From assembly GCA_024640845.1 (NCBI GenBank), contig JAHEEE010000010.1, positions 1-64,000 of the forward strand: DNA of 64,000 bases, read 5' to 3'. This document shows positions 41,729 to 48,462 of this stretch, piece after piece; position 1 is the stretch's first letter; every line of letters begins with the position of its first letter. Position numbers and translations under genes: made by a program. A model generated the notes under the pieces. It saw only the letters and a list, made by a program, of their open reading frames with translations, had not been told where the DNA came from and ran no database searches. The stretch is from Myxococcales bacterium. GTDB lineage: Bacteria > Myxococcota_A > Polyangia > Polyangiales > Houyiibacteriaceae.

Positions 41729-43054
41729 ATGGGTTCATCCCATCCCGTCGGCGGGCAGCGTAGCACAGCCTTCCTCGGCCTCGGGTCCGGCATCGGCCTC
41801 GTCATCGCCAACATGGTTGGAGCTGGCGTCTTCCTTAGCGCGGGGTTCATGGCGCAGCAGCTCAGCGCCGGCTGGATCCTGCTTGCATGGTGCGTCGGCG
41901 CGCTTCTCGCGATGGCCGGCGCGCGAGCCTATGCGGAGGTCGCTTTCCTCATCCCTCGTTCGGGCGGCGAGTACCGCTACTTGTCGGAGCTCTTCCACCC
42001 TGCGCTTGGCTATCTTGCGGGCTGGGCGTCGCTCCTCGTGGGCTTCTCGGCGCCGATCGCGATCAGCGCCTATGCTGCGGCGGCCTTCTTCTTCACGGTG
42101 TCGGGCGGTGGTGATGCGCGCATCGGCGCAACTGCGCTCCTCCTCGCACTGGGACTCTTCCACGCGATGGGCCTCCGCACTTCCCAATGGGTGCAGAACA
42201 CTCTGGTGATCCTGAAGGGATCGCTGATTCTCGCGTTCGTTGGCCTCGGGTTGTCGCTCGGTGACAATCGGTGGCCGATTTGGCAACCGGCCTCGAGTGA
42301 CGAGGGCGTGGTACTGCCTTTCGCGACGAGCCTGCTGTTCGTCGCCTACGCGTTTTCTGGATGGAACGCCGCTGCGTACGCCGCCGAGGAGTTCGAGACG
42401 CCGCGTCGCGACGTGCCGCGCGCGATGTTGATTGGATGTGCAGTCGTGGGCGCCGCTTACCTCTTGGTGAATTGGGTCCTCGTTGCAAACCTCGCGCCCG
42501 AGCGCGCCAAAATCGTTTTCGAGTACGAGGAGTCGAGAGTGACGCTTGCCCATGTCGTTGCGGGGGACTTCCTGGGGGACGCAGGGTCCGCCGCGGTTTC
42601 GCTTGGCATCGCAGTCATGCTGATCTCGAGCACCAGCGCGATGGCGCTGCTCGGGCCTCGTGTCTGCGCCGAAATGGCAGGCGATGGGTTCTTGCCCCGT
42701 TGGTTGCAGGGAACTCCAGGCGCGCCGCCGCGGGCAGCAATTGCGCTTCAAGCGCTGTTCGCGATCGCGCTGCTGTACACTCACACGATCGGCGAGCTGC
42801 TCAGCAACGTCGCCGGCATTCTCATCTTGTTCTCGGGGCTGGTTGCCGTCGGTCTGTTCCGGCTGAAGCGCCGGCGGCCCGATCTTCCGGCACCTCGTCG
42901 TACCGCATTGGTCGCCGCCGCGATCTATGCTGCGTCATGCGTATGGCTGCTGTTCAGCGCTTTCGAGAACCAGACAGGTCTCCTCCCATGGGTCGCCGTG
43001 GCCGCTGCGGTGGCGATGGTCGCCTACGGATTGGCCCAAAGCCGACTCAGGTGA
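41729..43054 (+). CDS. APC-superfamily amino acid permease
   Basis: 441 aa with about twelve hydrophobic helices. The first carries the family motif [20 protein letters not shown] (unwound substrate-binding helix). Next come [18 protein letters not shown] and, in the middle, [20 protein letters not shown], the usual helix 6-7 region. The substrate is unknown, but L-type amino acid or polyamine transport is typical. It lies 15 nt after smc and converges with purL, overlapping by 8 nt. Confidence 0.87.
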
Positions 43055-45329
43055 CGATGCCGTCGAGGGCGCGACCGTGCCGTTCTGCGAGCTCCTCGAC
43101 CGGCACTTCGCAGGCTCCGTCGATCGCGAGTGTATCGCCCGTCACGATGCCGATCTTTGCGAACGGGACACCATAGCGCGCGCAGATTTCACCGACCGCG
43201 CCGACGTTGCTTGCGGGTAGGCTCACGATGATGCGTGAAGGCTCCTCGCTGAACAACAGGGCATGAGCCGGAGCGTCCTCGTCGGCCGGCAGTGAGACAC
43301 TCGCTCCGTGCCCGTGAGCGATGCATGCCTCGGCCAGACACACGGCAAAGCCGCCGTCGCTGATGTCATGCGCGCTATGAAGGAGCTTGGCGCGTGCGAT
43401 CTCGAGCACCGCATGTTGGAGCGCTGCCTCGGCCTCGAGGTCGATTCCGACCGGTGCACCCGTTACTCGCCCCGCCCGTTGCACAAGCCACTCGGAGCCA
43501 CCGAGCACGCCCCGCGAGGGACGTCCGAGATGCGCGATGACGTCGCCCTCGCGCACGAAGCCGAGACCCAGACGGTGCTCAGGGTCCTCCAACTGCCCCA
43601 CGACCGCGACCGTGGGTGTTGGCAGGATCGCGTTGCCATCGGTCTCGTTGTAGAGGCTCACGTTTCCCGACACCACCGGCGTGTCGAGGGCGCTGCATGC
43701 AGCAGCGAGACCATCGATGGCCTGAGCAAAACGCCACATCTGCTCCGGCACCTCGGGATTGCCGAAGTTGAGGCAGTCGGTGAGGCCTAGGGGCTTCCCG
43801 CCGACGCACACGATGTTACGCGTGCATTCGGCGACCGCCATCGCCGCGCCACCAAAGGGATCGAGCTCCACATGCCGGCCGTTGCAGTCGGATGACACGG
43901 CTAGGTACTTCTCGCGCATGCCCGATTCGTCCTCGCAGAAGACGCGAATCACGGCAGCATCCCCTTCTCCGGGGCGAATCACCGTCCCATCGCGAACGAT
44001 GTGGTCGTACTGGCGCCAAATCCAAGCGCGGCTCCCTATGTTCGGAGACCCAATCAACTGCAGGAGCTCGGCGCCGAGGTCATCCGGCGCGTCGCCGATC
44101 ATCGTAACGATTGACGCATGTTCCGCGCGAGACTGCTGAGGGCGGTCGTACTTCGGCGCCGCATTGGTGAGCAGGTCGACGGGCAGGTCCACGACGACGA
44201 TGGGGTCGGGCGCTCCGGTTCCGTCGAAGGGATCGTAGCCGGGGGTCGCTTTGCAGACGAAGCGTCCGGTATCGGTCACGCGGCCGACAATCGACGCGTC
44301 GAGGTCCCACTTCGCGCAAATGTCGAACACCTCCTGCTCGCGCCCCTCCTTGGCAACCATCAGCATGCGTTCCTGCGATTCACTGAGGAGCATTTCGTAG
44401 GGACTCAGCGCTTTGGTGCGGCGGGGGATCGCGTCCAGGTCGAGCTCGATGCCGTTGCCTGCGCGATCGGCCATCTCGACCGAAGACGAGGTCAGGCCGG
44501 CTGCGCCCATGTCCTGCACGCCCGAAAGGCAGTCCGTGGCGAAGATCTCGAGACATGCCTCGAGCAGGAGCTTTTCCATGAAAGGGTCCCCGACCTGGAC
44601 GGTCGGGAGCTTGCTGTCGGTTTCTTCGCCGAACTCGGCGCTCGCCATCGTGGCGCCGTGGATCCCGTCACGACCGGTCTTCGCCCCCACGTAGATGATT
44701 GGATTGCCGACGCCTTCCGCGACGCCGAAGAACAGGTCGTCGGTTTTGGCGATGCCAACGGTGAAAGCGTTGACGAGGATGTTTCCATCGTAGCTCGGAT
44801 CGAACTGCACCTCACCACCCACCGTCGGAACACCGATGCAGTTCCCATAGCCGCCGATGCCGGCGACGACTCCCTTCAGAAGGTGGGGCGTCTTTGGGTG
44901 ATCGGGTCGGCCGAAGCGGAGCGAGTTGAGTGATGCTACCGGGCGGGCGCCCATCGTGAAGACGTCCCGAAGAATACCGCCCACGCCTGTCGCGGCACCC
45001 TGATACGGCTCGATGTATGACGGATGATTGTGCGACTCCATCTTGAACACTGCGCAGAAGCCGTCACCGATGTCGACTGCGCCTGCGTTCTCTCCAGGGC
45101 CCTGAACGACTTGTGGCCCGGTCGTGGGTAGGCGGCCGAGATGCACGCGCGACGATTTATAGGAGCAGTGCTCGGACCACATCACGCTGATCACCCCGAG
45201 CTCCGCGTAGCTTGGTTGACGCGCGAGTGTGCTGAGGACGCGCTCCCACTCTTCCTCTGAGAGCCCGAACTCGCGGGCGATCTTTGGGGAGCTTTCTGGC
45301 TCTCCGGGGAAGTTCGCTGGTGTGCTCAT
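43047..45329 (-). CDS. purL: Phosphoribosylformylglycinamidine synthase subunit PurL
   Basis: 760 aa, the small type of PurL that works in a complex with PurQ and PurS in purine synthesis. It has [14 protein letters not shown] (catalytic His), ATP-binding [34 protein letters not shown], and the second AIRS-like half with [14 protein letters not shown]. It overlaps purQ by 4 nt. PurS, usually adjacent, is not found beside purQ; the next gene upstream is a signal-peptidase homologue. Confidence 0.96.
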
Positions 45330-46021
45330 TGCAACCCCAAATGACGCTGAAGCGACTGAAAGAGCGTGAGCCCGTCGTCATTGCCGAGGAGAGGCTCACT
45401 CGCGCGTTCAGGGTGAGGCATCATGCCCAGAACGTTTTTGTCGCGGTTGTAGACGCCCGCGATGTCGCTCACCGAGCCGTTCGGGTTCGCGTCCGTCCCA
45501 TTGGGGGCGTCACCGCGCCGTGTGCAGTAGCGAAACGCGACCTGGCCGTGGCGCTCGAGCTCCGCGAGGCCTGCGTCAGTGGTGTGGTAGCGCCCATCGG
45601 CGTGCGCAATGGGCAGCTTCAACACGGTGCCCTGGCCCATGTCGGTGAACGGGCCATCGCTCTCGACACGAAGATGAATGTCACGGCACTCGAAGCGAAG
45701 GTGGGCGTTGCGGGTGAGGGCGCCGGGCAGAAGGCCCATCTCCGTCAAGATTTGGAAGCCGTTGCAGATCCCCAGCACAGGCCCGCCCCGGCCGGCGAAC
45801 TCGCGAATCGAGCTCACGATGGGACTGAACCCGGCGATCGCACCGGCGCGCAGATAGTCCCCATACGAGAAGCCGCCGGGGATCACGACCGCATCGGCAT
45901 CCCCGAGGGAGGTGTTCTTGTGGAAAGCGTACCAAGCGTGCGCCCCCACGACGTCGCGCACCGTGTGCAGAGCGTCCCAATCGGCGTTCGAGCCTGGAAA
46001 TTGTACGACAGCGACTTTCAT
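45326..46021 (-). CDS. purQ: Phosphoribosylformylglycinamidine synthase subunit PurQ
   Basis: 231 aa class I glutamine amidotransferase supplying ammonia to PurL. It has [18 protein letters not shown], the nucleophile loop [13 protein letters not shown] and the His-Glu pair in GMMPHPERA. The start ATG 46021 gives the family-standard [13 protein letters not shown] longer ATG at 46054 is possible and has a GAGGA-like sequence, but adds an uncharacteristic leader. Confidence 0.95.
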
Positions 46022-46090
46022 CGGGGTGGTTGGCGTCCTCGGCGGGCGGAGCATAGATCGGACCGCGCCCGGGGCAACGCGGAACTCGAG

Positions 46091-46717
46091 CTATCGTACT
46101 GGCTCGAAATAGTGGTGGGCGATGTCGCTATCGAGGCCCTCCACCGGGGTCAGGCGAAATACGATCGTCCCGCGGCATGTCGACGCGTCCACCACGCCAT
46201 ACGCGCGGCTGTCTTGGCCCATGTAGGAGCGAAAGTCGCCGAGCAGGTAGAGCTTGCTCTCGGGAACCGTCGTCTTGCGGACGAGATGTCGGCCCCCCTC
46301 CTCGAGGAAGATCAGGTGAGCATTCCCGCCGAAATACTCCCGGCCCCATACCAAAGGCCGCTTCCGGTCGTTGTCGAGATTGTGGAAGGTCATCAAGCCT
46401 TGGTGGTCGAACTCGACCGGCTCGCCGTCGATGAGGAGCTCGCTTCCGTAGGAGTCGATTGTCATCCCTGGGGTGGCAGCGACACGGCCGACGACCCAAC
46501 CGTCCTCCGTCGGGTGTCGACAGACCGCGATCGAGCCAAGATTGGGTTTGCCGCGCTTGTTGATCAGCACCCGCTCTCCGCGAATCAGGGTAGGCGCCAT
46601 CCCGTTGTGGGCGACCGAGGCCACATCGAACCAGATGAACTTGAGGACGAGTGCGATGACGATGATTCCCGCCCCCACCCATGAAAGACATCCAAGCCCG
46701 CTTCGAACCGCACCCAC
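46091..46717 (-). CDS. Signal peptidase I homologue lacking the Ser-Lys dyad (probable pseudo-enzyme)
   Basis: 208 aa S26-family protein with one N-terminal membrane helix (residues ~11-30) and a periplasmic domain. Box B reads AHNGMAPTL where active enzymes have (P)SGSMxPTL, so the nucleophile Ser is Gly39. Box D reads WVVGRVAATPGM where active enzymes have YIKRVxGxPGD, so the general-base Lys is Gly77. Box E (LLGDFRSYMGQDSRAYGVV) is well preserved, as is the fold around it, so this is not simple decay. GTG 46717 begins 10 nt after thiE; a TTG at 46756 would overlap thiE by 29 nt. Possibly a substrate-binding or regulatory relative of LepB. Confidence 0.8.
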   Translation of the reverse strand: MGAVRSGLGCLSWVGAGIIVIALVLKFIWFDVASVAHNGMAPTLIRGERVLINKRGKPNLGSIAVCRHPTEDGWVVGRVAATPGMTIDSYGSELLIDGEPVEFDHQGLMTFHNLDNDRKRPLVWGREYFGGNAHLIFLEEGGRHLVRKTTVPESKLYLLGDFRSYMGQDSRAYGVVDASTCRGTIVFRLTPVEGLDSDIAHHYFEPVR

Positions 46718-46727
46718 GACAGTTCGG

Positions 46728-47366
46728 CTATTCGCCGTTCGGAGCCGTCTTGTCAAGCTCGCCGAGGAGGGCCTGCAGCACCGCCCTCGGGTCCGGCGCG
46801 TCGTAGATCGCGCGCCGGACCGCGACCCCGTGCGCGCCGGCGCCGATCAGCGACCTGACGTGGCGCACACCAACCCCGCCGAGCGCGTATGTCGGCAACC
46901 CGACACTCGTGATCTCGGTCGCAAAGCGATCGATGCCCATCGGTTCCGACTTGCCTGGCACCCGGAAGACCGGGCTTAGAAAGGCGAACGTCGCCCCATC
47001 CCGGGCAGCGCGGAGGAGGCCGCTGCGGTCGTGGCGAGATACGCCAATCAGAGGGATATCCGGCCATTCGCTCCGAACCTGCTCTACGCTCAGCCCCGCC
47101 TCGGGAAGATGAACGCCATCTGCGCCCACGATCTTCATGACGTCGGGCCGTCGACTGATCGTCAACGGGGAGTCTCGCTCAGCGGTTGCGGCGCGCAGTG
47201 CGCGTCCCCAGGCAACGAGATCGCGATCGGCTGCTTCCGTCGCCCGAAGCTGGACCCCGACTGCGCCGCGCGGGCAGCGGTCGAGTGCGCGAATCACCGG
47301 GGCTATTGGGCCCTCTGGGTGCTCCGGGTTGGTGATGATCCAAAGCCGCGGGAGCGCCGTTCGCAT
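46728..47366 (-). CDS. thiE: Thiamine-phosphate synthase/TenI-like protein
   Basis: 212 aa TIM-barrel. It has VGVQLRATEAADRDL at the place of the family motif (V)QLREK, then ISRRPDVMKIVGADGVHLPE, IGVSRHDRSGLLRAARDGA, FLSPVFRVPGKSEPMG and YALGGVGVRH. In canonical ThiE the Lys of QLREK contacts the pyrophosphate substrate; here it is not conserved, which leans toward TenI or a divergent ThiE. Position beside thiG and thiS supports a thiamine role: joining thiazole phosphate with HMP-PP, or thiazole tautomer chemistry. It lies 10 nt after thiG. Confidence 0.75.
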   Translation of the reverse strand: MRTALPRLWIITNPEHPEGPIAPVIRALDRCPRGAVGVQLRATEAADRDLVAWGRALRAATAERDSPLTISRRPDVMKIVGADGVHLPEAGLSVEQVRSEWPDIPLIGVSRHDRSGLLRAARDGATFAFLSPVFRVPGKSEPMGIDRFATEITSVGLPTYALGGVGVRHVRSLIGAGAHGVAVRRAIYDAPDPRAVLQALLGELDKTAPNGE

Positions 47367-47376
47367 CTTGGCAAGC

Positions 47377-48174
47377 CTAGGTTCGGCCGTCTTGATCGGA
47401 TCCGATCACGCCCTGAAGGGGGCTCGACGCCGTGGCGTAGAGCTTGCGGTCGATACGGCCTGCGAGGAACGCATCTCGCCCGGCCTCGACTGCAGCCTTC
47501 ATCGCGCGCGCCATACGGACCGGATCCTTCGCGCCTGCGATCGCGGTGTTCATCAACACCCCATCGATGCCGAGCTCCATTGCAATGGCCGCATCGGACG
47601 CCGTCCCGACTCCTGCGTCCACGATGACGGGGATGTTTGCGTGCTTCACGATGATTTCGATGTTGAAGGGGTTGCGGACACCGAGGCCGCTCCCGATCGG
47701 CGCCGCCAAGGGCATCACGGCAGCGCAGCCGAGGTCTTCGAGCCGCCGGGCCGCGACAGGGTCGTCGTTGAAGTAGGGAAGCACGGTGAAGCCATCGGCG
47801 ACCAAGGTCTTGGCGGCTTCCAGCGTCGCCGGCACGTCCGGAAAGAGGGTCTTTTCATCGCCGATCACCTCGAGCTTGAGCAACGGGGTGTCGAGCAGCT
47901 CGCGCGCGAGGCGCGCAGTGCGCACCGCGTCCTCGGCCGTGTAACAGCCCGCCGTGTTCGGTAGAAGCGTGTAGTTGCCTTCCCGGAGCACGGTCATGAT
48001 CGACTCCGATCCAGTGGCCCGTAGATCGACCCGCCTCACGGCCACCGTGACAACCTCGCACCCGGACGCGTCGAGCGCGCCTCTTGCGGTCTCGAGGTCC
48101 GGATACTTGCCCGTCCCGGTGAACAAGCGCGAGCGGAACTCGAACTCGCCGATCTTCAAGATGTCTTCCGACAC
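47377..48174 (-). CDS. thiG: Thiazole synthase
   Basis: 265 aa. It forms the thiamine thiazole ring from deoxyxylulose phosphate, dehydroglycine and ThiS-thiocarboxylate. Family stretches are [47 protein letters not shown] (with the Schiff-base Lys), [15 protein letters not shown] and [15 protein letters not shown]. Start GTG 48174 directly follows the thiS stop (TGAGTG), so translation is coupled. Confidence 0.96.
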
Positions 48175-48375
48175 TCAACCGCCTCCTACGAAATGAACCA
48201 CTTCCACACGATCACCTTCTTCGAGCTCTGTGCTCTCGTGTTCGGCGCGCGGCACGACCTCTTGGTTGCGTTCGACCGCCACCAACGTGTCGCCGAGCCC
48301 GAGTGAAACGAGCAACTGCTTCACCGTCGTACTTGAATCCACCTGTTGCTCTTCGCCGTTGACCACCAGTCGCAT
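48175..48375 (-). CDS. thiS: Sulfur-carrier protein ThiS
   Basis: 66 aa ubiquitin-fold protein ending in Gly-Gly-Gly (HFVGGG); the terminal Gly is thiocarboxylated to deliver sulfur to ThiG. The N-terminus [20 protein letters not shown] is typical. ATG 48375 is chosen; the reading frame upstream is antisense to the methyltransferase and not family-like. No TPP riboswitch is visible in the short gap upstream, which holds only a small TGCAA/TTGCA dyad. thiF, thiO/thiH and thiC are absent here. Confidence 0.9.
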
Positions 48376-48462
48376 CGGCACGGAGCGTAGGGCGGGGCCG
48401 TATCCCCTGCAAGCGGGTTGCAACGGTGGGCGCCGTCGGCGGCGGATGTTACGCTCGGGCGC

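Follow-up and report, generated by a model that had tools for sequence, protein, structure and literature searches.

The window analysed here is a stretch of 64,000 nucleotides from a contig of a Myxococcales bacterium. The locus under study lies on its minus strand and comprises, in order of reading, thiS (48175..48398), thiG (47377..48174), thiE (46728..47366), a gene for a signal peptidase I-like protein of family S26 (46091..46717), purQ (45326..46021) and purL (43047..45329). The analysis bears out an earlier note on this DNA, which had located the S26-like gene between thiE and purQ and described its frame as intact: the frame is open and encodes 208 amino acids from a GTG start at 46717, 11 bp past the stop codon of thiE, to a stop codon at 46091-46093. 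Since GTG or ATG occupies the equivalent place in the orthologues, the upstream TTG at 46756 is not needed. A 466-codon antisense open reading frame (45284-46684, plus strand) overlaps both purQ and the S26-like gene and is probably not a gene but a by-product of high G+C content.

The protein belongs to the signal peptidase fold family, as indicated by its match to Pfam Peptidase_S26 (PF10502; 2.8e-19, 70.1 bits against a gathering score of 22.9) and by a match to NCBIfam TIGR02227 (sigpep_I_bact; 1.5e-20). A predicted N-terminal membrane helix (residues 3-28, 46634..46711; AlphaFold/DSSP) is followed by box B, HNGMAPT, and box D, VVGRV, both as previously quoted. Alignment with the LepB of the same genome (L001, with PSMEPS and VKRV) and with the family places Gly39 (46601..46603) at the site of the nucleophilic Ser and Gly77 (46487..46489) at that of the general-base Lys, so that both catalytic residues are indeed replaced by Gly. 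Box E, DFRSYMGQDSR (residues 161-171, 46205..46237), carries one inserted residue; the view that this box is kept holds for its elements GD.R and DSR, which are present, but not for its Lys-positioning Ser (equivalent to Ser278 of E. coli), replaced by Met166 in the window protein. The loss is therefore not of exactly two residues, as had been thought: a third active-site residue is gone as well, and two cysteines have been gained, Cys66 in box C (46520..46522) and Cys181 (46175..46177), both invariant in the family. Because all three active-site residues are replaced, the protein cannot, judging from its sequence, be regarded as a functional signal peptidase, and peptidase activity is presumably absent.

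Conservation in the genus and the order

The genus, which is the GTDB group of 'Myxococcales bacterium SG8_38' in the order Polyangiales, is represented by 18 genomes besides that of the window; 17 of them have an orthologue, and the one without is G003, a draft in 540 contigs. In all genus orthologues box B is HNGMAPT, in which Gly stands for the Ser, and the Lys is replaced by Gly or Ala. Identity to the window protein within the genus is 63-80%, the adjoining thiE being less conserved (53-63%), and pairwise dN/dS ratios between close pairs (Nei-Gojobori) range from 0.08 to 0.2. No stop codon interrupts any of the matches in the genus or the order. The S26 paralogue and a match scoring as LepB occur together in 16 of the 19 genus genomes, including G000, and the LepB sequences that were inspected, those of G000 and G016, are complete; a catalytically complete LepB, which the earlier note had proposed to look for, is encoded elsewhere in the genome of the window (L001). 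The missing catalytic residues could also be expected of a decaying gene or a sequencing error, but this explanation is ruled out for practical purposes by orthologues without internal stops, a dN/dS of about 0.1 and a pattern that extends across the order.

Relatives at 30-40% identity are present in several families of the Polyangiales, one of the order-level genomes (10,327,335 bases) being that of what we take to be Sandaracinus amylolyticus. More distant relatives occur in families f12 and f7, and f17, another family of the same class, also has members. We aligned 61 family members with 30 comparison proteins grouped as being of the signal peptidase I type, 28 of which have both Ser and Lys, the other two having Ala in place of the Ser (L070) or Gly and Gln in place of Ser and Lys (L109). 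Lys is absent from the Lys site of all 61 members, its place being taken by Gly (53), Ala (6) or Leu (2). The Ser site is occupied most often by Gly (28 members), then by Ser (22), which is retained in the Polyangiaceae-like f12 and in f17, and by Ala (11). The box-E Ser (column 166), found in 30 of 30 comparison proteins, is missing from every family member, whereas C66 and C181 occur in all 61 members and in none of the comparison proteins.

The Cys pair and the loss of the Lys define this family, and Gly at the Ser site is only its commonest state; the conservation of Gly at both sites, which had been suggested as a check, is thus not universal. That the Ser site admits only small residues (Gly, Ala or Ser) and the Lys site is mostly Gly speaks for constraint and not for drift. 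No orthologue retaining Ser and Lys together was found, nor a Ser/Lys pair that a shifted alignment might bring into the site: the family-invariant columns contain no Lys, and their sole Ser is Ser170, part of the box-E DSR that is common to the comparison peptidases. The proposal that the protein is a repurposed non-catalytic relative and not a product of decay is well sustained by its presence in 17 of 18 congeners and many families of the order, by purifying selection, by the separate, complete LepB and by a predicted fold that is intact despite the loss of three active-site residues.

In the phylogenetic tree the main Polyangiales clade (support 91) and a clade of f12 and f7 (support 99) were recovered. 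The common Cys pair makes a single origin of all Cys-pair proteins likely, but the deep branch that joins the main clade, f12 with f7, and f17 is poorly supported (69) and also includes other dead paralogues, so that we do not claim it.

Other types of S26 paralogue were also seen. In seven from other Myxococcota families (L098, L099, L101, L104, L105, L108 and L093), Arg takes the place of the Lys, and the Ser is replaced by Gly, Thr, Ala or Glu; these proteins do not have the Cys pair, and the paralogue L109 of genome G214 (PSAGMNPT ... IQRV) also lacks it. Dead signal-peptidase paralogues of other types therefore seem to be common in the Myxococcota.

Gene neighbourhood

The order thiS-thiG-thiE-S26-like gene-purQ-purL is found throughout the genus wherever the contig allows. 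Of 31 further order-level genomes, 19 have thiE, mostly accompanied by thiG, immediately upstream of the S26-like gene, and in three more it lies on the opposite strand at a distance of up to about 5 kb; purQ as downstream neighbour is mainly specific to the genus. Many Polyangiales loci contain a small putative lipoprotein gene (..CGS..) between thiG and thiE (L078:1820-2179, L081:3182-3442 and homologues), which is absent from the genus of the window. The neighbours are different in f12, where they include proB, a trypsin-like lipoprotein with GDSGG and an FHA/zinc-ribbon protein; at three of these loci (L063, L064 and L066) an apparently intact trypsin-like lipoprotein (AHHC, GDSGG) is followed by the S26-like gene and then by the FHA/zinc-ribbon protein.

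The gene next downstream in 17 of the 31 order-level genomes and in two of three f17 genomes encodes a protein of the YbjN/type III secretion chaperone fold. This protein has an N-terminal signal-peptide-like stretch and matches Pfam YbjN at up to 8.6e-8, and its model (pLDDT 87) gives Z scores of up to 14.9 with type III chaperones and of 12.4 with E. coli YbjN. None of the 19 genus genomes has it. Conversely, family f5 keeps thiG, the small lipoprotein, thiE and the YbjN-like gene in this order without an S26-like gene (L158-L161), thiE having been detected between the lipoprotein and YbjN-like genes in two of the four loci (L159 and L161). An obligate pairing of the two genes was rejected, given that each is found without the other; they are old neighbours.

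Predicted structure and known relatives

The AlphaFold model of the window protein (pLDDT 82, pTM 0.78) consists of the single N-terminal helix and a beta-rich domain. Its closest match among solved structures is E. coli LepB (Z 16.1, rmsd 2.8 over 168 residues), followed by SipA (Z 12.2, rmsd 2.1 over 124 residues, 24% identity) and S. aureus SpsB, in agreement with Foldseek. Besides this best fold match, the protein shares with LepB and signal peptidase I (MEROPS S26A) recognisable boxes B to E and a TIGR02227 score above the cut-off, but differs by the replacement of both catalytic residues and the box-E Ser and by the gain of the Cys pair. C66 lies at the end of one modelled strand and C181 at the start of another, and the two may form a disulfide that would stiffen the core.

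Streptococcus pyogenes SipA (PDB 4n31) is similar in its signal peptidase I fold, single membrane anchor, lost dyad and Gly at the Lys site. According to the accessible part of its published description, SipA has Asp and Gly in place of the dyad, retains the cleft, shows no peptidase activity and is essential for pilus assembly, and no counterpart of the Cys pair is reported there (PMC4049620). It differs from the window protein in that the Ser is replaced by Asp and not by Gly, and in belonging to a Gram-positive pilus locus. No such locus was seen here: sortase and pilin neighbours are missing, the context being thi and pur genes in the genus and other non-pilus genes in the relatives. S. 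aureus SpsA, a type I signal peptidase homologue without two conserved catalytic residues, has been described as inactive and as present beside an active enzyme (PMC12445088). Such a coexistence is also found here, but SpsA is a Gram-positive paralogue described as dispensable (PMC12445088), and the present comparison gave no evidence for common descent of its inactive state and that of the window family.

Possible roles of the family

By analogy with SipA, the protein most likely serves exported proteins as a peptide-binding scaffold or chaperone anchored in the membrane, a reading in which we place intermediate confidence. The protein would be a conserved pseudo-protease, held in the inner membrane by its single helix, with a signal peptidase I fold that probably faces the periplasm; Ser-Lys cleavage would be unavailable to it, and the peptide-binding cleft, which is most likely kept, would take hold of part of an exported or envelope protein, as proposed for SipA. 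In favour of this reading, beside the data on sequence, fold and conservation, is the YbjN-like gene that follows in 17 of the 31 order-level genomes. Against it, that neighbour is missing from the whole genus of the window and is kept in f5 without the S26-like gene, the steadiest neighbours, thiG and thiE, give no hint of a link to export, and the Ser is retained in f12 and f17.

The coexistence with a complete LepB of similar fold and membrane anchoring would also suit a modulator of the cell's own LepB, which would compete for pre-proteins or form a heteromer and so tune signal-peptide processing. We consider this unlikely, as the gene was not seen to be linked to lepB and f5 and some other families have LepB without the S26-like protein. 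A new chemistry, in which C66 and C181 together with H37 and H68 would form a redox or metal site, draws on the presence of the Cys pair in all members and no comparison protein, and on the occurrence of H37 in 33 and of H68 in 31 of the 39 main-clade proteins; however, f12, f7 and f17 lack H37 and mostly have Asp at position 68, yet keep both cysteines, which a structural disulfide explains better, and we regard this possibility as improbable to a similar degree. Less probable still is a component of thiamine metabolism or uptake built on the S26 fold: although thiE lies directly upstream at all genus loci and in most of the order-level genomes, a conserved operon can reflect inherited order only, the f12 copy sits elsewhere, with proB and its companions, and f5 has thi genes without the S26-like gene.

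The scaffold or chaperone reading can be carried further: the Cys-paired dead signal peptidases of the Polyangia might be an ancient family and, together with the exported YbjN/type III chaperone-like protein, constitute a periplasmic holdase for newly exported proteins, which is a tentative and on the whole doubtful suggestion.

A few Gram-positive bacteria are known to have dead signal peptidases, and one role, that of SipA in pilus assembly, has been worked out. Our search of open papers found none on non-catalytic signal peptidases in myxobacteria. Non-catalytic S26 proteins are thus already known, but a Cys-paired, order-wide Gram-negative family is new as far as these papers show. The persistence of such a family under selection beside a working LepB suggests a second, non-cutting use of the signal-peptidase fold in envelope biogenesis, and it provides defined genes with which a non-cutting role can be tested. 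If the holdase reading is true, it would amount to a pseudo-signal-peptidase chaperone system in Gram-negative bacteria.
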